Positions 2,760 to 26,313 of a stretch of DNA of 64,000 nt are shown piece by piece (positions within the stretch are counted from its first letter, which is position 1; each line of letters starts with the position of its first letter). The stretch comes from Sandaracinus amylolyticus (GTDB lineage Bacteria; Myxococcota_A; Polyangia; Polyangiales; Sandaracinaceae). The stretch covers positions 9,858,001-9,922,000 of the forward strand of contig NZ_CP011125.1 of assembly GCF_000737325.1 (NCBI RefSeq), given 5' to 3'. The position numbers were made by a program, and so were the translations under genes. Below the pieces are notes generated by a model. It had not been told where the DNA came from. It ran no database searches and worked only from the letters and a program-made list of their open reading frames with translations.

Positions 2760-4391
2760 ATGCGAATCTCGTGTGACTTCCTCGTGCTCGGCAGCGGTGT
2801 CGCCGGGCTCACGTTCGCGCTCGAGGCGGCCAAGCACGGCCAGGTGATCGTCGTCACGAAACGCTCGCTCTCCGACTCGAACACGAACTGGGCGCAGGGC
2901 GGCATCGCCGCGGTGATGGACCCCGCGCACGACAGCTTCGAGGCGCACGCGGGCGACACGCTCCGGGTGGGCTACGGGCTCAGCAAGCCCGAGGTCGTCG
3001 AGATGGTCGTGCGCGACGGGCCGGCGCGCATCCGCGAGCTCATCGCGCTCGGCGCGCAGTTCGACGCGGCGGTGGGCTACTCGGGCTCGGTCGACGAAAC
3101 CGGCGCGATGCCGCTCGATCTCACGCGCGAGGGCGGGCACACCGCGCGCCGCGTGGTGCACGCGGGCGACGTGACCGGGCGCGAGGTGCAGCGCGCGCTC
3201 GTCGAAGCGGTGCGCGCCAACCCGAGCATCCGCGTGCTCGAGAGCCACATGGCGATCGACCTGATCGATCTCTCGAAGCACGGCGGGCCGCACCTCGTCG
3301 CGGGCGCGTACGTGCTCGATCACGTCGCGGGCGCGGTGCACACGATCGCGGCGCGCGCGACCGTGCTCGCGACCGGCGGCGCGGGGAAGGTCTACCTCTA
3401 CACGTCGAACCCCGACGTCGCGACCGGCGACGGGGTCGCGATGGCGTATCGCGCGGGCGCGCTGGTCTCGAACATGGAGTTCTTCCAGTTCCACCCGACC
3501 TGCCTGTTCCACCCCGCGGCGAAGTCGTTCCTCATCAGCGAGGCGCTGCGCGGCGAGGGCGGCATCCTTCGTCTCGCCAACGGCGACGCGTTCATGGCGC
3601 GTCACCACGACATGAAGGACCTCGCGCCACGCGACGTGGTCGCGCGCGCGATCGACTTCGAGATGAAGCGCACCGGCGCCGAGCACGTGATGCTCGACAT
3701 GACGCACAAGAACGCGTCGTACCTGCGCGAGCGCTTCCCGAACATCTACGAGGAGTGCCTCAAGTTCGGCATCGACATGGCGGTGCAGCCGATCCCGGTG
3801 GTGCCCGCGGCCCACTACATGTGCGGCGGCGTCGTGGTCGATCTCGAGGGACGCTCGACCGTGCCCGGGCTCTGGGCGATCGGCGAGGTCACGTGCTCGG
3901 GGCTCCACGGCGCGAACCGGCTCGCGTCGAACTCGCTGCTCGAAGGGCTCGTGTACGGGCATCGCGCGGCGCGCGCGCTCGCGGGGGCGCGCAGCGAGAC
4001 GCGGTTCCCCGACGTGCCCGAGTGGGACGTGGGCGAAGCCGCGCCGAGCGACGAAGCGGTCGTGGTCACGCAGAACTGGGACGAGCTGCGGCGCTTCATG
4101 TGGAACTACGTCGGGATCGTGCGCAGCGATCGCCGGCTGCGACGCGCCGCGCGGCGCATCGCGCTCCTGAAGGACGAGATCCGCGAGTACTACTGGGAGC
4201 ACCTCGTCACGCTCGATCTGCTCGAGCTGCGGAACATCGCGGACGTCGCGGAGATGATCGTGTCGTGCGCGAGCGTGCGCCGCGAGAGCCGCGGGCTGCA
4301 CTTCAACATCGATCACCCGCAGACCGATCCGGCGCAGGCGCACGACACGCGCATCGTGAAGGGCGAGCCCGGGCACCTCGCGGCGCGCTGA
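2760..4391 (+). CDS. nadB: L-aspartate oxidase
   Basis: NadB oxidises L-aspartate to iminoaspartate with FAD, the first step of de novo NAD synthesis. The 543-aa protein opens with an FAD dinucleotide-binding fold (LVLGSGVAGLTFALEAAKHG, residues 8-27). NTNWAQGGIAAV, GREVQRALVEAV, FFQFHPT, and GLHGANRLASNSLLEGLV near 383-400 are typical of the succinate dehydrogenase/fumarate reductase flavoprotein family as found in NadB. The C-terminal helical domain (LRRFMWNYVGIVR) is present. Length matches the family. No nadA or nadC is adjacent, so it appears to be monocistronic, followed by a pair of palindromic repeats. The ATG is preceded by a promoter-like hexamer instead of a clear ribosome site. 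Confidence 0.96.
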   Translation: MRISCDFLVLGSGVAGLTFALEAAKHGQVIVVTKRSLSDSNTNWAQGGIAAVMDPAHDSFEAHAGDTLRVGYGLSKPEVVEMVVRDGPARIRELIALGAQFDAAVGYSGSVDETGAMPLDLTREGGHTARRVVHAGDVTGREVQRALVEAVRANPSIRVLESHMAIDLIDLSKHGGPHLVAGAYVLDHVAGAVHTIAARATVLATGGAGKVYLYTSNPDVATGDGVAMAYRAGALVSNMEFFQFHPTCLFHPAAKSFLISEALRGEGGILRLANGDAFMARHHDMKDLAPRDVVARAIDFEMKRTGAEHVMLDMTHKNASYLRERFPNIYEECLKFGIDMAVQPIPVVPAAHYMCGGVVVDLEGRSTVPGLWAIGEVTCSGLHGANRLASNSLLEGLVYGHRAARALAGARSETRFPDVPEWDVGEAAPSDEAVVVTQNWDELRRFMWNYVGIVRSDRRLRRAARRIALLKDEIREYYWEHLVTLDLLELRNIADVAEMIVSCASVRRESRGLHFNIDHPQTDPAQAHDTRIVKGEPGHLAAR

Positions 4392-4427
4392 AGCTCCACC
4401 GGTGGAACTCGGAAGCTCCACCGGTGG
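4391..4427. repeat. two direct copies of a palindrome-containing 15-mer after nadB
   Basis: AAGCTCCACCGGTGG occurs at 4391-4405 and again at 4413-4427, a 22-bp period. Each copy contains the palindrome CCACCGGTGG; the second extends to a nearly perfect AGCTCCACC/GGTGGGGCT hairpin. It starts on the last base of the nadB stop and precedes the stop of the leftward gene ending at 4439, so it could end transcription from both sides. Confidence 0.45.
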
Positions 4428-4438
4428 GGCTCGGACGC

Positions 4439-4690
4439 TCAGCGCTCGCGGCGCGGGTCGTTGCCGTGCGAGCTCGCGTCGATCTCGGTGACGCCGCCGC
4501 GGGCGCGGCGGGGGCGCATGCCGCTCTTGGTCGCGGGGCGCGCCGGGCGCGCCGGCGGCGCGTCGGGCACGGTGTCCCGCACGCGGCCGTGGGTCGTGGT
4601 GCCGCCCTCGACGGGGCGGATCGGCGTGCGGTGATGCGGGTCGCGATCGCGCGAGGGATCTCGCGTCGGCGTACGTCGCGGCTGGGGCAT
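4439..4690 (-). CDS. small basic, Pro/Arg-rich protein
   Basis: An 83-aa hydrophilic protein rich in Arg, Pro and Asp, with no membrane segment. It starts 9 bp after the stop of the gene ending at 4700 and a GAGGAAGG purine stretch lies inside the end of that gene, consistent with coupled translation. It contains KSGMRPRRARGG, closely matching ESGMRRARRKRD in the upstream neighbour, so the two may be diverged copies of one small protein. Composition alone can arise by chance in GC-rich DNA, so I give only moderate confidence. Function unknown. Confidence 0.45.
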   Translation of the reverse strand: MPQPRRTPTRDPSRDRDPHHRTPIRPVEGGTTTHGRVRDTVPDAPPARPARPATKSGMRPRRARGGVTEIDASSHGNDPRRER

Positions 4691-4699
4691 CGGGGGCGC

Positions 4700-4900
4700 T
4701 CAACCTTCCTCGCGTCGCGGATCGCGGCGCGCGCTTGTCTCGACGAGCTCTTCGGCGACCGGGTCCCGCTTGCGACGCGCGCGACGCATGCCGCTCTCTC
4801 GCTTGCGCTCGGCGGGCGCCGGAGCGCTGCCCTGCGCGGGGATCTCGGGCTCGGTCGTGCGCTCCTGCCGCTTCTTCCTGCGATCGCTCGGGCCCGACAT
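4700..4900 (-). CDS. small highly charged protein
   Basis: A 66-aa protein starting MSGPSDRRKKRQERTTEPE. It is strongly charged throughout and predicted unstructured except for a possible C-terminal helix (PVAEELVETSARRDPRREEG). It is first of two short leftward genes and shares the SGMR-RRAR element with the second. It is divergent from the GAF-kinase gene at 5039. I do not recognise a family; a nucleic-acid-associated role is possible from charge but not shown. Confidence 0.45.
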   Translation of the reverse strand: MSGPSDRRKKRQERTTEPEIPAQGSAPAPAERKRESGMRRARRKRDPVAEELVETSARRDPRREEG

Positions 4901-5038
4901 GACGCGCTTTCCGGGTCGTCAGGATCCACGAGGGGGCGCGCAGGGTCCGTCGGGATCATCCCCGACAGGGCTGCGCTGCGCCTCGGCCCTGGACGTCGCG
5001 CGGTCTACGCTGGGGTTGTCGTCGTGTTCCTCGGTCCC

Positions 5039-6556
5039 ATGAGACGAGCGCCCGTGAACGAGATCGTCGGAGCCCCGCAGGACGAGCGCGAGCGCCTCGC
5101 AGCGCTGATCGCGCTCGATGTGCTCGACACGCCGCCCGAGCCGACGTTCGACGACCTCGCGCGCCTCGCGGCGCAGCTGTGTGGAACGCCGATGGCGCTG
5201 GTCACCCTGGTCGACGCGCGGCGACAGTGGTTCAAGGCGCGTGTCGGGGTGACGCTGAGAGAGACGCCGCGCGAGATCGCGTTCTGTGCGCACGCCGTCG
5301 CGGCGGACTCGGCGATGCTCGTGGTGCGCGACGCGACGTGCGACGAGCGCTTCTGTGACAACCCGCTCGTCCGCGGCGAGCCCTTCATCCGCTTCTACGC
5401 GGGCGTTCCGCTCGAGCTCGCGAGCGGAGCGCGCGTCGGGACGCTCTGCGTGCTCGATCGCGTGCCGCGCGAGCTCGGCGCGTCGCAGCTCGATGCGCTC
5501 TCGATCCTCGCGCGGCGCGCGGCGTCGGAGCTCGAGCTGCGCAAGGCGCTCGGCGCGCGCGAGCACGCGGAGTCGGGCGAGCAGGAGCTCGCGGGACAGC
5601 GGCTCGGCGGGCGATATCGCATCGACGAGGTGCTCGGCCAGGGCGCGATGGGCATCGTCGTCGCGGCCCACGATCTCGAAGCGCGCGAGGACGTCGCGAT
5701 CAAGTTCCTGATGCCGACGCTCGGCGCCGATCGCGAGGCGCGCGATCGCTTCGTGGGCGAGGCGCGCGCGCTGATGCGCATCGAGAGCGAGCACGTGTCG
5801 AAGGTGCGCGACGTCGGCAACCTGGCGAGCGGCGCGCCGTACATCGTGATGGAGCGGCTGATCGGGCGGGACGTCGCGACACTCCTACGCGAGTCGAGAG
5901 AGCCCTTGGGCGTGCGCCAGGCGGCGAGCATCGTGCTGCAGGCGTGCGAGGGGATCGACGCCGCGCACGCGCTCGGCATCCTCCATCGCGACATCAAGCC
6001 CGCGAACTTGTTCTGCGCGGAGCAGCCCGACGGATCGTCGCACGTGAAGGTGCTCGACTTCGGGATCGCGCGCGTGGAGCGCGCGGCGAGCGCCACCGCG
6101 GCGACGACGACCGGCGCGCTCGTCGGCACGCCGAGCTACATGGCGCCCGAGCAGCTCGAGGACGCGTCGCGCGTGGACGCGCGTAGCGAGGTGTGGTCGC
6201 TCGGGGTCGTGCTCTACGAGCTGCTCACCGGCGCGAAGCCGTACGGCGGGCGCACGGCGACCCAGGTCTACGCGGCGATCCTGGTGGGCTCGCTGAAGCC
6301 GCCACGGGCGCGACGCCCCGAGATCCCCGACGCGCTCGAGCGCGTGATCCTGCGCGCTCTCGAGAAGAGCCCGGACGCGCGCTTTTCGTCGGTGCGAGAG
6401 CTCGCGCGCGAGCTGGCGACGTTCGCCGAGGACGCACCGCCCGCCAAGACGACGCAGTCGCTGCCGGTGATGCGCGATCGACGCGCGCAGTGGATCACGA
6501 TCGCGGTGCTGATCGCGATCGTGGTGCTCGCGGCGATCGTCGCGCTGCGCGGATGA
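5039..6556 (+). CDS. GAF domain-Ser/Thr protein kinase fusion with C-terminal membrane anchor
   Basis: The 505-aa product joins an N-terminal GAF sensor domain (about residues 10-175; LDTPPEPTFDDLARLAAQLC, REIAFCAHAV, FYAGVPLELASGARVGTLCVLD) to a Hanks-type kinase (about 190-455). The kinase has a glycine loop LGQGAMGIV, ATP lysine in VAIKFLM, catalytic HRDIKPANLF near 316 and DFGIARVE, so it looks active. It ends with a single membrane segment (WITIAVLIAIVVLAAIVALRG), so the enzymatic part faces the cytosol. The GAF part resembles those that read small ligands or redox/light via bound cofactors; no cofactor Cys is obvious. ATG 5039 is the first start that keeps the complete GAF domain. Confidence 0.9.
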   Translation: MRRAPVNEIVGAPQDERERLAALIALDVLDTPPEPTFDDLARLAAQLCGTPMALVTLVDARRQWFKARVGVTLRETPREIAFCAHAVAADSAMLVVRDATCDERFCDNPLVRGEPFIRFYAGVPLELASGARVGTLCVLDRVPRELGASQLDALSILARRAASELELRKALGAREHAESGEQELAGQRLGGRYRIDEVLGQGAMGIVVAAHDLEAREDVAIKFLMPTLGADREARDRFVGEARALMRIESEHVSKVRDVGNLASGAPYIVMERLIGRDVATLLRESREPLGVRQAASIVLQACEGIDAAHALGILHRDIKPANLFCAEQPDGSSHVKVLDFGIARVERAASATAATTTGALVGTPSYMAPEQLEDASRVDARSEVWSLGVVLYELLTGAKPYGGRTATQVYAAILVGSLKPPRARRPEIPDALERVILRALEKSPDARFSSVRELARELATFAEDAPPAKTTQSLPVMRDRRAQWITIAVLIAIVVLAAIVALRG

Positions 6557-21446: not shown

Positions 21447-22349
21447 TCACACCTTGCCGGCCGCGCGCACCACGTGCTGTCCGTCGGCGGTCATCAGCAC
21501 GCCGTAGAGCTCGGGGCGGCGATCACGGAAGAAGCCCCAGCTCGCGCGGTAGCTCGCGATCTTCTGGCGATCGAACGTCGCCATCACGAGCCCCTCGGTC
21601 GTGCGGTCGAGCTCGCTCACCTTGTCGCCGCGCATGTCGGCGACGAACGACGAGCCGTAGAACGTCTGCGTCAGCTCGTGGCCGATGCGGTTCGCCGCGA
21701 TCACCGGCGTCGCGTTCGCGACCGCGTGGCCGATCATCACGCGCTGCCACGGGTCGCGCGTGTCGAGCTCGGGCGCGTGCGGCTCGCTGCCGATCGCCGT
21801 CGGATAGAAGAGCAGCTCCGCGCCGAGCAGCGTCATCGCGCGCGCGCACTCCGGGTACCACTGGTCCCAGCAGATGCCGACGCCGAGCGTGCCGAAGCGC
21901 GTCTTCCACGCCTTGAACCCGGTGTCGCCGGGCCGGAAGTAGAACTTCTCCTCGTAGCCCGGCCCGTCGGGGATGTGGCTCTTGCGGTAGCAGCCGAGCA
22001 CGTTCCCGCCGTCGTCGACCATCGCGACGGTGTTGTAGTAAGCGCCCGGGCCCGCCTTCTCGAAGAACGAGATCGGGATGACGATGCCGAGCTCCTTCGC
22101 GAGCTTCGCGAAGAGCGCGACCGTCTCGTTGTCCTCGAAGGCACGCGCCTCCTCGAACCAGCGCTCCTTCTCCTCGCAGCAGAAGTAGGGCCCCTCGAAG
22201 AGCTCGCTCGGGAGCACCACGTTCGCGCCGCGCTTGGCCGCCTCGCGCACCCAGCCGATCACGCGCTCCACGTTCTGCGCGCGCGAGCCGCCGAGCGGAC
22301 ACTGGATCGCCGCGACGGTGACCTCGTTCGCCTGCTGCTCGATGCTCAT
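21447..22349 (-). CDS. aguB: N-carbamoylputrescine amidase
   Basis: The 300-aa protein is a nitrilase-superfamily amidohydrolase converting N-carbamoylputrescine to putrescine, CO2 and ammonia. The triad is visible as Glu in LPSELFEG (near 49), Lys in CYRKSHIPDG (near 120) and Cys in GVGICWDQWYPE (near 155). The CN-hydrolase signature VAAIQCPLGG starts the domain. Length is standard. ATG 22349 overlaps the aguA stop by four bases (ATGA), so the two enzymes of agmatine degradation are co-translated, with AguA acting first. The neighbourhood makes this assignment stronger than for a lone nitrilase. Confidence 0.95.
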   Translation of the reverse strand: MSIEQQANEVTVAAIQCPLGGSRAQNVERVIGWVREAAKRGANVVLPSELFEGPYFCCEEKERWFEEARAFEDNETVALFAKLAKELGIVIPISFFEKAGPGAYYNTVAMVDDGGNVLGCYRKSHIPDGPGYEEKFYFRPGDTGFKAWKTRFGTLGVGICWDQWYPECARAMTLLGAELLFYPTAIGSEPHAPELDTRDPWQRVMIGHAVANATPVIAANRIGHELTQTFYGSSFVADMRGDKVSELDRTTEGLVMATFDRQKIASYRASWGFFRDRRPELYGVLMTADGQHVVRAAGKV

Positions 22350-23404
22350 CGGGATCGCTCCGGCTGCTGCTGGGTGATGCAGTGGAAGGCGCCGCCGCCT
22401 TCGAGGATCGTCTTGCTCATCCGCCCGACCACGCGGTGCTCGGGGAAGAGGGGCTCGAGCGCGCGCACCGCGGCCTCGTCCCAAGGCGTGCCGTAGGTGG
22501 GCACCACGACGCTCGTGTTGCCCACGTAGAAGTTCGCGTAGCTCGCCGGCATGATCTCGCCGTCGTCGTCGACGACCCGCCCCGGCGAGGGCATCCGTAC
22601 CACCTGGAGCTTCCGACCCTTCGCGTCCACCATCGACGCGAGGTCGCGCGCGATCTCCTCGAGCACCGCCGCGTTCGGGTCGTCGTCGCCGCTCGGCGCC
22701 ATGCACACCACGACGCCCGGCGCGACGAAGCGCGCGAGCGTGTCGACGTGCCCGTCGGTGTGATCGTTCAGCAGGCCGTTCTTCAGCCAGAGCACGCGCC
22801 GCACCCCGAGCGCGCCCTCGAGCACGCGCTCGATCGCCGCACGATCGAGCTTCGGGTTGCGGTTGCGGTTGAGCATGCACTGCTCGGTCGTGAGCACCGT
22901 GCCCTCGCCGTCGACCTCGATCGCGCCGCCCTCGCACACGAAGTCGAGCGCGAACGGGTGCACCTCGTCGCCGACGATCGCCTGCACGCGCTGCGCGAGG
23001 TCGGGGTCGCCCTCGAGCTCGTACTTGCCGCCCCAGCCGTTGAACACGAAGCGCACCGAGCCGAGGCGCAGCGAGCGATCGAGCAAGAACACCGGCGCGG
23101 TGTCGCGCAGCCAGATGTCGCCGTACGCCTGGCGGTGGAAGCGCGCGCCGAGGTGCCCGAGCGCCGCGCGCGCGTCGCGCTCGTCCTTCTCGGTGCGCAC
23201 CAGGATCTCGAGGCGCTCGCCGCGCGGCGAGCCGGTCTGGGGATCGGGATCGGCGATGCCGTCGCAGAGCCCGACGAATTCGCGCTGCGCGGCGCCGAGC
23301 GACTCCTCCCAGAGCGTCTCGTCGCTCGGCCACGCGAGCCAGACGGCTTCGTGCCGCGCCCACTCGGCGGGCTGCTGGAATCCGGCTTCGTGGGGCGTCT
23401 TCAT
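22346..23404 (-). CDS. aguA: agmatine deiminase
   Basis: The 352-aa enzyme hydrolyses agmatine to N-carbamoylputrescine and ammonia. It has the peptidyl-arginine-deiminase-like fold with RHEAVWLAWPSDETLWEES near the N terminus, GDIWLRDTAPVF (metal-free substrate Asp), VCEGGAIEVDGEGT, NDHTDGHVDTLARF (catalytic His/Asp) and the catalytic Cys in EGGGAFHCITQQQP close to the C terminus. All expected catalytic residues are present. It is coupled to aguB, giving an arginine/agmatine-to-putrescine route. The start ATG 23404 lies 35 bp after the stop of the next upstream gene, so the unit may be longer. Confidence 0.96.
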   Translation of the reverse strand: MKTPHEAGFQQPAEWARHEAVWLAWPSDETLWEESLGAAQREFVGLCDGIADPDPQTGSPRGERLEILVRTEKDERDARAALGHLGARFHRQAYGDIWLRDTAPVFLLDRSLRLGSVRFVFNGWGGKYELEGDPDLAQRVQAIVGDEVHPFALDFVCEGGAIEVDGEGTVLTTEQCMLNRNRNPKLDRAAIERVLEGALGVRRVLWLKNGLLNDHTDGHVDTLARFVAPGVVVCMAPSGDDDPNAAVLEEIARDLASMVDAKGRKLQVVRMPSPGRVVDDDGEIMPASYANFYVGNTSVVVPTYGTPWDEAAVRALEPLFPEHRVVGRMSKTILEGGGAFHCITQQQPERSR

Positions 23405-23439
23405 GGGCGCGAGGTGTAGCAGGATCGCGAGAAGCGCGA

Positions 23440-24819
23440 TCAGTCGAGCCAGCCCTCGAGCCAGCGCTCCGCCTCGCGCTCGTCGATGGGCGCGCCGAGC
23501 GCGGCGACGAGCGCGAAGTATGCCTCCGCGACCTCCTCGCGATCCGCGGTGTCGAGCTCCATCCGCGCGAGCGACGTGACGAACGTCTCGAGCACGCGCC
23601 TCGCGGCGTCGAGCGAGGTCGCCTTCGGCGCCGCACCGCGCGCCTTCGTCCACGCCGCGCACGCGCGCTCGCCGCGCCGGCGGTCGTGATCGACCCAGTC
23701 GCGGAACGGATTCTCGAGGTTCGCGGCGATCCACGCGTCGTCCTTCGCGCCGCGGATCTCGACGTGCGCCACCGCGCGCAGCGCCGCGCGCAGCGCGGGC
23801 ACCGCCGAGCGACGCACGCCGTCGATCTCGACGCGCGCGAGCGCGGGCCACGAGGACGGAACGCGCGACGGATCGATCCCGTACGCGTCGCGCAGCTGCA
23901 GCGTGTGGAGGCGCGGCAGCTCCGCGAGACGCTCGACGTGCTCGACGCTGCCTCGGAGCGAGAGCGCCTCCAGCGCGACGTAGCGGGTCAGGATCGACGC
24001 GTCGGTCCCGCCGTGGATCGACAGCCGCCGCACCGCGACGAGCCCGGGCACGAACGCGCCGGGCCCGCTCGTGTGCACGTCGAGCTCGGCGTCGGGCGCG
24101 ACGACGTCGAGCTCGCGCAGATCGTCGACCCGCAGCGTCTCGAGCTCCGGGCCCACCGCCAGCGTCATGCCGCGCGTCCCGTCGAGCGAGAGCTCGAGCA
24201 GCCGGGTGCCCGAGACGTCGATCGTGCGCTCCCCGTGCCCGCTCCAGCGCAGGGTGTCGATGCGCGGCTGGGTCGCGATCCAGTCGAGCACACGCGCGTC
24301 GGGGCCGCGGTAGTCGATCTCGGTGAGCGCCGTGAGCGCGTCGAGCGCGCTCCAGTCGGGCGGCGGCTGCGGCAGACCCGGCACCGACGGCGGGAGCCCG
24401 ATCGCGAGACGCCACGTGCCCGGCGCGAGCTCGTGCGTCGTGCCCGCGATCGTGATGCGCACCGGACCGGGCGCGTCGGCGCGCGGCGGGCGAGGACGAC
24501 GACCGAGCCGCGCCCACGCCAGGTGACGCGCGAGGCCCCAGCCCGACATCCCGCCCGGGCGCGCATCGCGCGGCTCGAGCACCCCGAGCGGCAGGTAGTC
24601 GGGCGGCGGCGGGCCGTCGAGCATCGCAGGCGCGCTCGTGTCGAGCGCGGTGCAAGCGCGCAGCGCGTCGAGCGCGGGCGCGCCATCCCCGATCCAGTCG
24701 AGCGCGGCGACGCACGGCCGCTGCATGTCGAGCGCGACGATCTGACAGGCGCCCCACCGCCCGTTCCTCAACGGGACGGCGTACACGGTGCCGACCTCGG
24801 GCGGCTTCCTGCGCGTCAT
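23440..24819 (-). CDS. leucine-rich-repeat-like protein with N-terminal Imm26-like segment
   Basis: A 459-aa soluble protein. The first 50 residues (GTVYAVPLRNGRWGACQIV) resemble the start of Imm26-type domains found in toxin-immunity proteins and their housekeeping relatives. Residues 150-370 carry irregular leucine-rich repeats of the form LETLRVDDLRELDV and LEALSLRGSVEHVERL. The C-terminal 90 residues are helical and acidic. There is no signal peptide and no obvious toxin gene next to it, so an immunity role is only a suggestion. ATG 24819 is chosen because upstream codons lie in Arg-rich repeat DNA. That upstream repeat frame ends at 24816, overlapping this start as ATGA. Confidence 0.72.
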   Translation of the reverse strand: MTRRKPPEVGTVYAVPLRNGRWGACQIVALDMQRPCVAALDWIGDGAPALDALRACTALDTSAPAMLDGPPPPDYLPLGVLEPRDARPGGMSGWGLARHLAWARLGRRPRPPRADAPGPVRITIAGTTHELAPGTWRLAIGLPPSVPGLPQPPPDWSALDALTALTEIDYRGPDARVLDWIATQPRIDTLRWSGHGERTIDVSGTRLLELSLDGTRGMTLAVGPELETLRVDDLRELDVVAPDAELDVHTSGPGAFVPGLVAVRRLSIHGGTDASILTRYVALEALSLRGSVEHVERLAELPRLHTLQLRDAYGIDPSRVPSSWPALARVEIDGVRRSAVPALRAALRAVAHVEIRGAKDDAWIAANLENPFRDWVDHDRRRGERACAAWTKARGAAPKATSLDAARRVLETFVTSLARMELDTADREEVAEAYFALVAALGAPIDEREAERWLEGWLD

Positions 24820-24853
24820 CCCGCCGAGGATGCCCGCGAACGGCCGACCTCGC

Positions 24854-25147
24854 AGGGCTGCATCGCGCGTCGCGACGGCGCGACGGCCGCTGCGAGCCTT
24901 CGCAGCGCGCCTCGAGCGCGCGTGACGCGCGCTGCGGGCCTCCCCAGCGCGCATCGCGACGGCGTCACGGGCGCTGCGAGCCTTCCCGGCGCGCGGTGAG
25001 ACGGCGTCACCCGCGCTGCGCGCCTCCCCAGCGCGCGATCCGCCGGCGAGCGCACCGCTGCGAAGCTTCGTACCGCGTGATCCGCCGGCGAACGCACCCC
25101 TGCGAAGCGTCGCAGCGGCCGATCCGCCGGCGCACAGGCCGCTACGG
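24854..25147. repeat. seven-copy degenerate 42-bp tandem repeat
   Basis: Seven units of exactly 42 bp run from 24854 to 25147, with boundaries at 24896, 24938, 24980, 25022, 25064 and 25106. Each unit ends in a form of CGCTGCGA. Units 3-4 share CTCCCCAGCGCGC-type starts and the last three share GATCCGCCGGCG. Divergence between copies is substantial. Because 42 is a multiple of three, both strands stay open as 14-residue repeats (for example a 93-codon leftward frame 25097-24816). The array fills most of the 387-bp space between the leucine-rich-repeat gene and the FAM20-like gene; I see no other feature there. Composition argues against a real protein. Confidence 0.85.
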
Positions 25148-25206: not shown

Positions 25207-26313
25207 TCACCGCTCGAGCCACACCGCGTCGCCGCGCGCGGCGAGCGTCGCGTCGACGTGCTCGAGGAGCACGCGGCGTCGCTCCTCGAGGTGCTCGAGC
25301 TGGGTCTCGTCGAGCGCCGCGCCGAGCGGGTCGCCCATCAGGCGCGCGCGCAGATCGTCCATCGTGAGCGCACGGATCGTGTCGATCGTCGAGCGGCGGA
25401 AGCGCTGCAGCGCGCGCAGTCGGGCGTCCATGTACCCGAAGCGCGCGCGGTGGCGCAGGAAGCACGCGCCGTGATCGAGGAACACCAGCGGCCCACCGGG
25501 CTCGCGGGTGCGGAGGTTCGTGAAGTCGCCGCCCCAGCGATCGGTGTTGTGCGCGAGGTAGTCGAACAGCACGAGGTCGGAGAGCTCGGCCGCGCGATCG
25601 CCGCGATCGGGATCGCCCGCCGAGGGCCCTTCGCCGCGGGTCGGGATCGGCACCGTCCCCGAGGCGAGCGCCGCGTACTCGCGCGGGCGCTGGAACGGGG
25701 TGATCGCGAGCGCGCCGTCGAGCCGGATCCAGCGCTCCCAGCCGCGCCCGAGGTCGAGCGAAGGGAGCGCCTCGGGGATCCACCACACGAGCGCGCCGCG
25801 CACCGTTCCGTCGGGCTGGACCACGACCTCGCGGAGGCGCTCGGGCGCGTGCTCGCTCAGCACCGGCTCGAGCCGCGACCACGGCACGCGGCGACCGACG
25901 ACCGGCGCGACCCGTCCGAGCCCGAGCGCGCGATCGAGGTGGTACGCGGCGATCTCGGCGGCGTAGGAGCCGCTCGAGAACGTCTGCTCGGGCTTGAAGT
26001 ACCCACGCGTTCCGTCGCGCAGCGTGACGACGAACGCGACGCTGCGTCCGCCGCGCCCCCGCCCCACGCCCTCGAGCGCGGCCTCGGAGAGCGAGGTGAT
26101 GCGCGGGGCGTCGGGCTCGCCGAGGAACGCGTCGATCCGCGTGATCGCGGTCGCGGGCTCGGCGGGCGGGAGCTCGATCGTGAAGGAGGGCGCGAGCGCG
26201 AGGGGCTCGAGCGCGGCGTCGGGTCGCTCTTCGGGCGTGCCGCACGAGGCAGCGATCAGCGCGACCACACCGCAGGCCGACGCGGCCGAACGCGCGCGTG
26301 TGCGGGGGCCCAT
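25207..26313 (-). CDS. secreted FAM20/four-jointed-like kinase-fold lipoprotein
   Basis: The 368-aa protein has a signal peptide with lipobox-like IAASC (residues 20-24), so it is probably anchored outside the cytosol. The body resembles FAM20/four-jointed secretory-pathway kinases: GYFKP with the ATP Lys near 107, AAEIAAYHLDRALGLGRVAP with Glu 120, PVVGRRV, then FDYLAHNTDRWGGDF with catalytic-loop Asp 258, and GPLVFLDHGACF with a metal-binding Asp 280 in place of the DFG Asp. These correspond in order to the HNMDRH and LDNGRGF segments of FAM20 proteins as I recall them. Bacterial relatives are little studied. It could be an active extracytoplasmic kinase; all the key residues are present. 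Start ATG 26313. Confidence 0.72.
   Translation of the reverse strand: MGPRTRARSAASACGVVALIAASCGTPEERPDAALEPLALAPSFTIELPPAEPATAITRIDAFLGEPDAPRITSLSEAALEGVGRGRGGRSVAFVVTLRDGTRGYFKPEQTFSSGSYAAEIAAYHLDRALGLGRVAPVVGRRVPWSRLEPVLSEHAPERLREVVVQPDGTVRGALVWWIPEALPSLDLGRGWERWIRLDGALAITPFQRPREYAALASGTVPIPTRGEGPSAGDPDRGDRAAELSDLVLFDYLAHNTDRWGGDFTNLRTREPGGPLVFLDHGACFLRHRARFGYMDARLRALQRFRRSTIDTIRALTMDDLRARLMGDPLGAALDETQLEHLEERRRVLLEHVDATLAARGDAVWLER

Follow-up and report, generated by a model that had tools for sequence, protein, structure and literature searches.

A predicted lipoprotein of Sandaracinus amylolyticus belongs to a bacterial branch of the Fam20 kinase family

Does a gene of Sandaracinus amylolyticus encode an exported kinase of the Fam20 family, whose members phosphorylate secreted proteins and the sugars of proteoglycans and which has been described as an animal family appearing with sponges (PMC5865150, PMC7948968) or as specific to eukaryotes or to Metazoa (PMC9758233)? 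The gene lies in a 64,000-nucleotide stretch of the chromosome (contig NZ_CP011125.1, positions 9,858,001 to 9,922,000), here called the window, and we refer to its product as the window kinase. The original prediction recognized in it a bacterial lipoprotein in which the segments KP, AEIAAYHLDR, PVVGR, HNTDR, and LDHG are ordered as in the secretory-pathway kinases of animals. The text of PMC5865150 nowhere mentions bacteria, and among open-licence papers we found none that joins Fam20 with myxobacteria; CotH is an already known bacterial Fam20C-like kinase (PMC12189002). Profile searches, structure comparison, and residue alignment all led to the Fam20 family, so the proposed kinship to the animal enzymes held; kinase activity itself is a prediction.

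The open reading frame starts with ATG and encodes 368 amino acids. Because the GC content is very high, many mechanical ORFs overlap this stretch; a GC3 of ∼0.89 and conservation across species pick out the kinase frame among them. All five segments were found in the predicted order (KP at residues 107–108, AEIAAYHLDR at 119–128, HNTDR at 255–259, and LDHG at 279–282), and the numbering Lys107, Glu120, Asp258, and Asp280 proved correct on the translation. The gene and its export signal are located as follows.

25207..26313, minus strand: Fam20-type kinase gene (ORF translation, Pfam Fam20C over cut-off, AlphaFold model, and Foldseek and VIA top matches to Fam20 only)
26242..26313, minus strand: predicted signal peptide with lipobox, residues 1–24, lipid-accepting Cys24 (pattern match at residues 14–24)

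The segment CGVVALIAAS-C (residues 14–24) conforms to the standard prokaryotic lipoprotein pattern and ends at Cys24, and the lipobox also occurs in an orthologue (L007) that is 92% identical to the window kinase. When a single strict rule was applied to Fam20-type kinases, 50 of 86 carried a signal-peptide pattern and 32 of 86 a lipobox; the same rule detected a signal-peptide pattern in 3 of 65 cytosolic neighbour enzymes, used as the control, and a lipobox in 0 of 65. N-terminal export signals are thus the rule across the bacterial Fam20-type family. Judged by its lipobox pattern and by these family-wide signals relative to the controls, the window kinase is predicted to enter the secretory pathway.

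The Pfam model PF06702 (Fam20C) matched the window kinase at E = 1.9e-6 (28.2 bits, curated cut-off 26.8), and some relatives scored far higher, up to 67.9 bits. With phmmer, the single window sequence found hydra Fam20 (6.5e-9) and Fam20C (9.4e-8) in the PDB set; two relatives used in the same way matched human Fam20C at 4.4e-19 and, in the second case, gave 3.9e-16. We then ran a profile built from the alignment of 36 bacterial relatives (A1), of which 33 match PF06702 at E ≤ 0.01, against the PDB sequences. It retrieved Fam20C (4.6e-39), Fam20A (9e-32), Fam20B (4.9e-30), and also C. elegans Fam20, and nothing outside Fam20 fell below E 0.19. The resemblance of motifs is not a matter of chance, because the Pfam cut-off is passed, phmmer gives a match, and residues are unvarying across bacteria and animals (see below). 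The Pfam FAM198 model, which we take to represent the GASK1 proteins often grouped with Four-jointed, gave a weak 19.7 bits and did not reach its cut-off of 25. HipA-like clans had also been named as candidates for a profile search. HipA_2 (PF20613) and TIGR03843 (the SCO1664 family), both bacterial and kinase-like, matched the C-lobe of some members weakly; for the window kinase both remained below their curated cut-offs, and membership in either was rejected. CotH has no row in the Pfam results of the window kinase and is not among the profile and fold matches listed, which proves nothing.

The AlphaFold model of the window kinase (pLDDT 92.9, pTM 0.91) agreed with this assignment. Foldseek ranked Fam20 structures at positions 1 to 28 (E 1e-15), followed by PI4KII at 1e-4, and VIA-align superimposed the model on Fam20A, Fam20B, and Fam20C with Z of 24.3–25.4 (2.8–3.4 Å over 272–281 residues), the next folds being PI4KII (Z 16) and Helicobacter pylori CtkA (Z 15). 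The model of a second, distant bacterial clade (pLDDT 91.2) gave Fam20 Z values of 27–28 versus 16 for the next fold. From the gap to the next folds in both Z and Foldseek, the predicted fold is therefore Fam20-type and not merely kinase-like, which answers the call for a structural comparison with FAM20C. On the whole-fold superposition, Lys107, Glu120, Asp258, and Asp280 would be expected to cluster in space.

We aligned 74 bacterial and 4 animal Fam20 domains to assess the residues that a kinase would need. The relevant features of the window gene are these.

26047..26055, minus strand: glycine-rich loop, residues 87–89, with Gly88 invariant (alignment A1 and wider set)
25990..25995, minus strand: Lys107-Pro108, counterpart of hydra Fam20 Lys133, the ATP phosphate-binding Lys (alignments; roles from PMC5865150)
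25954..25956, minus strand: Glu120, alpha-C Glu, counterpart of ceFam20 Glu218 (invariant in all sequences)
25537..25548, minus strand: catalytic loop Asn256-Thr-Asp258-Arg259 (N, D, and R invariant in bacteria and animals)
25516..25518, minus strand: Asn266 in the catalytic loop, a putative metal ligand (invariant in bacterial groups, absent in animals)
25474..25476, minus strand: Asp280, DFG-type metal-binding Asp (invariant; role of Fam20C Asp478, PMC5413348)

Glu120, Asp251, Asn256, Asp258, Arg259, and Asp280 did not vary in any of the 78 domains, and Lys107 was replaced (by Arg) in only 3 of the 74 bacterial sequences, all from one paralogue group. Lys107, Glu120, and Asp258 align with hydra Lys133, ceGlu218, and the catalytic base Asp299, whose roles are described in PMC5865150, and Asp280 is the counterpart of the metal-binding Asp478 of Fam20C (PMC5413348). 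The four proposed catalytic residues thus correspond to catalytic residues of the animal enzymes. Glu120 qualifies as the canonical alpha-C Glu and not as the acidic residue that forms an ion pair with the Lys, for which Fam20B and Fam20C use ceGlu213/hmAsp152 in the loop preceding helix alpha-3 (PMC5865150). The ceGlu213 position is Gly115 in the window kinase and non-acidic in most relatives, mostly Ala, Thr, or Ser. Asn266 is present throughout the bacterial sequences, although two columns later in group G, where the animal proteins have Thr, Met, or Tyr; bacterial Fam20 proteins may use it as a metal ligand, as canonical kinases do. Each animal Fam20 has 8 cysteines in the aligned domain, forming four conserved disulfides, whereas the bacterial domains have a median of 1 and do not keep these disulfides.

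Fam20B and hydra Fam20 (PDB 5xom/5xoo) resemble the window kinase in fold (Z 25), extracytosolic location (predicted here), the Lys/Glu/Asp/Asp set, a long AEIAAxHLDR...PVVGR motif, and a GAL..W.PE motif, with ∼27% identity over the aligned core. Fam20B, a xylosylkinase, is a Golgi protein, however, whereas the window kinase is a predicted lipoprotein. Absent from the window kinase are the cysteines that form the disulfides, the acidic partner of the ion pair, and the sugar-pocket residues His301 and Lys321 of Fam20B, which are replaced by Trp260 and Ala283. Fam20C, a Golgi casein kinase and the best profile match, and the pseudokinase Fam20A share the fold; the window kinase lacks the FYF loop, the Cys-rich loop (CxYYC), and the Arg390-type LDN-loop Arg of Fam20C (Ala283 occupies the Arg position) and has the additional catalytic-loop Asn266. 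Because the Fam20B pocket residues are replaced and the Fam20C loops are absent, the window kinase cannot be put in either of the substrate classes known from animals. We place it in a branch of the Fam20 family that is bacterial and separate from the Fam20A, Fam20B, and Fam20C subfamilies.

The genes surrounding the bacterial kinases fall into two recurrent arrangements. The first, found in ∼25 genomes of families f1, f3, f4, and f7, consists of the kinase, an aguA-type agmatine deiminase, and aguB, frequently separated by no more than about 10 bases, and includes the window copy.

22346..23476, minus strand: aguA-type agmatine deiminase (PAD_porph), downstream of the kinase (Pfam/NCBIfam, linkage in ∼25 genomes)
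21450..22358, minus strand: aguB, N-carbamoylputrescine amidase, next in the cluster (TIGR03381 above cut-off, linkage)

The window aguA is the sole PAD_porph gene in the Sandaracinus genome; one ORF and a repeat array separate it from the kinase. The ORF (23440–24822, 460 aa) has no Pfam match. The array (24864–25136) lies between the kinase gene and the gene that follows on the minus strand, and it has a 42-base unit in some four to six tandem copies. Elsewhere, in a single family, a gene for ornithine cyclodeaminase/mu-crystallin lies upstream of the kinase-aguA-aguB cluster (L045, L046, L048–L050, and L057), and at L054 a 620-aa, exported-looking IgGFc_binding protein (3462–5324) is encoded between kinase and aguA. 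In the second arrangement, a divergent gene for a NAGPA phosphodiester glycosidase lies beside the kinase in 12 genomes (11 from families f1, f3, f5, f8, and f63, and one unplaced MAG). The 52% paralogue of the window gene (L097, 4611–6978) is paired in this manner, in a genome with only 3 NAGPA genes in all, and one genome (L054) has both arrangements. The NAGPA proteins that we inspected by eye start with signal sequences. The pairing of a secreted phosphodiester glycosidase with a secreted kinase of the Fam20 type suggests that surface glycans are phosphorylated.

Combining the homology, predicted fold, conserved residues, export signals, and neighbours, we infer the activity, compartment, acceptor, and phosphate donor as follows. 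The window kinase is probably an active, lipid-anchored Fam20 kinase that works outside the cytosol. It would be exported by Sec and then lipidated at Cys24, which would leave its compact kinase domain of the Fam20 type at a membrane surface, either the periplasmic or the outer one. There, the ATP phosphates would be held by Lys107 together with Glu120 and divalent metals by Asp280 and, probably, Asn266, while Asp258 would serve as the base that activates the acceptor hydroxyl. The acceptor would most likely be a sugar in a glycan that is secreted or part of the envelope and less likely a Ser or Thr of a secreted protein. A glycan is hinted at because NAGPA adjoins the kinase in 12 genomes and because the Fam20 of hydra and sponge is a glycan kinase (PMC5865150); as the main acceptor we give it somewhat less than an even chance. 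Counting against an active glycan kinase are the Gly at the acidic position and the Trp and Ala at the sugar-pocket positions, and the window copy itself adjoins aguA and aguB, which encode cytosolic enzymes, and not NAGPA. An extracytosolic kinase of any specificity meets two main objections: the acidic loop residue is missing, and, to our knowledge, no ATP pool has been established outside the bacterial cytosol.

The same exported fold could instead phosphorylate Ser/Thr of secreted or outer-membrane proteins, in the manner of Fam20C and CotH. Animal Fam20C is a protein kinase, and CotH, described as a Fam20C-similar atypical bacterial kinase, phosphorylates coat proteins (PMC7821199, PMC12189002); the loss of the two sugar-pocket residues would also fit such an enzyme. 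The loops and the LDN-loop Arg of Fam20C are equally missing, however, and the conserved neighbour NAGPA is a glycan enzyme, so we consider a protein kinase rather unlikely. CotH phosphorylates spore-coat proteins in Bacillus (PMC7821199), and the passages considered here mention no export signal for it.

A second alternative, which we judge unlikely, is a pseudokinase or non-kinase that binds nucleotide, regulates a paralogue in the way that Fam20C is activated by Fam20A, or transfers AMP or glutamate. The ceGlu213-type acidic residue, lacking at position 115, is required for Fam20C activity and absent in Fam20A, where its loss partly explains the pseudokinase state (PMC5865150); moreover, many genomes encode two or more paralogues, one of those in Sandaracinus having Arg in place of Lys107. 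Against this stand the invariance of Glu120, Asp258, and Asp280, the near invariance of Lys107, and the retention of all canonical residues in the window copy, while the missing metal ligand could be supplied by Asn266. Improbable, in our estimate, is a lipid or small-molecule kinase with a function closer to PI4KII, HipA, or CtkA: PI4KII and CtkA are the nearest structural neighbours after Fam20 and HipA_2 and TIGR03843 give weak matches, but all score far below Fam20 in sequence and structure (by profile, PI4KII at E ∼0.6 and CtkA not among the matches listed). Recent acquisition from an animal, or contamination with animal DNA, has a negligible chance and was ruled out despite the high motif identity around AEIAAYHLDR...PVVGR, given a gene in a closed chromosome of 10,327,335 bases and bacterial homologues that are deeply diverged, found in conserved operons, and devoid of the conserved disulfide cysteines.

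The preferred reading, an exported bacterial Fam20 kinase, extends well beyond this genome. A sample of 377 genomes from the Sandaracinus phylum contained relatives at E ≤ 1e-5 in 100, about a quarter, and a profile search of near relatives detected the family in 111 of 144 genomes, many with two or more paralogues. A contig scan limited to one phylum yielded two loci; a Sandaracinaceae MAG carries a 41% relative. The plasmid collection held no match for the window kinase or a closer Fam20 relative. Sandaracinus itself has three family members: beside the window gene and the 52% paralogue there is a third that is more distant. The window kinase, on which the original prediction had focused, is accordingly not an isolated case, being one among several paralogues of a family widespread in the phylum. 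The third paralogue (L003, 1060–1881; G000:C1:7995347-7996168), with Arg replacing Lys107, is a candidate pseudokinase. In other classes (L118, L120–L122, and L126–L130), the Fam20-like domain often occurs in open frames of ∼590–1260 aa and is possibly fused.

When 78 sequences were placed in an unrooted tree, animal Fam20 formed a long branch beside a bacterial clade (L036–L040), a split with SH-aLRT/bootstrap values of 93/99, but the tree comprises one bacterial phylum and animals without an outgroup, for which the next families looked too divergent to be aligned safely; it gives no direction and is open to long-branch effects. A smaller set analysed under LG+C20 placed the animals identically (placement only, without support values). 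An old transfer between animals and bacteria, in either direction, may have taken place. As a tentative proposal, which we hold with more doubt than confidence, Fam20 could be a bacterial invention, an old family of exported kinases of this phylum, from which animals acquired their extracellular kinases by gene transfer near the animal origin. In this proposal the bacterial kinases would modify glycans of the envelope or matrix jointly with a phosphodiester glycosidase, and their metal site would differ in using Asn266 where animals have the acidic residue of the loop.

Since the Pfam Fam20C model matches them, some bacterial members may already be so labelled by automatic annotation. The bacterial proteins raise the question of how a phosphate donor is supplied outside the cytosol, and, having no conserved disulfides, they offer a simpler model enzyme for a disease-linked family (Raine syndrome). 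With its numerous members, its conserved residues, and its two recurrent gene neighbourhoods, the family lets such points, and the one that follows, be tested directly. Extracellular phosphorylation of the Fam20 type may not be confined to animals but occur in bacteria too, and a broad bacterial Fam20 branch would change the supposed origin of extracellular phosphorylation.
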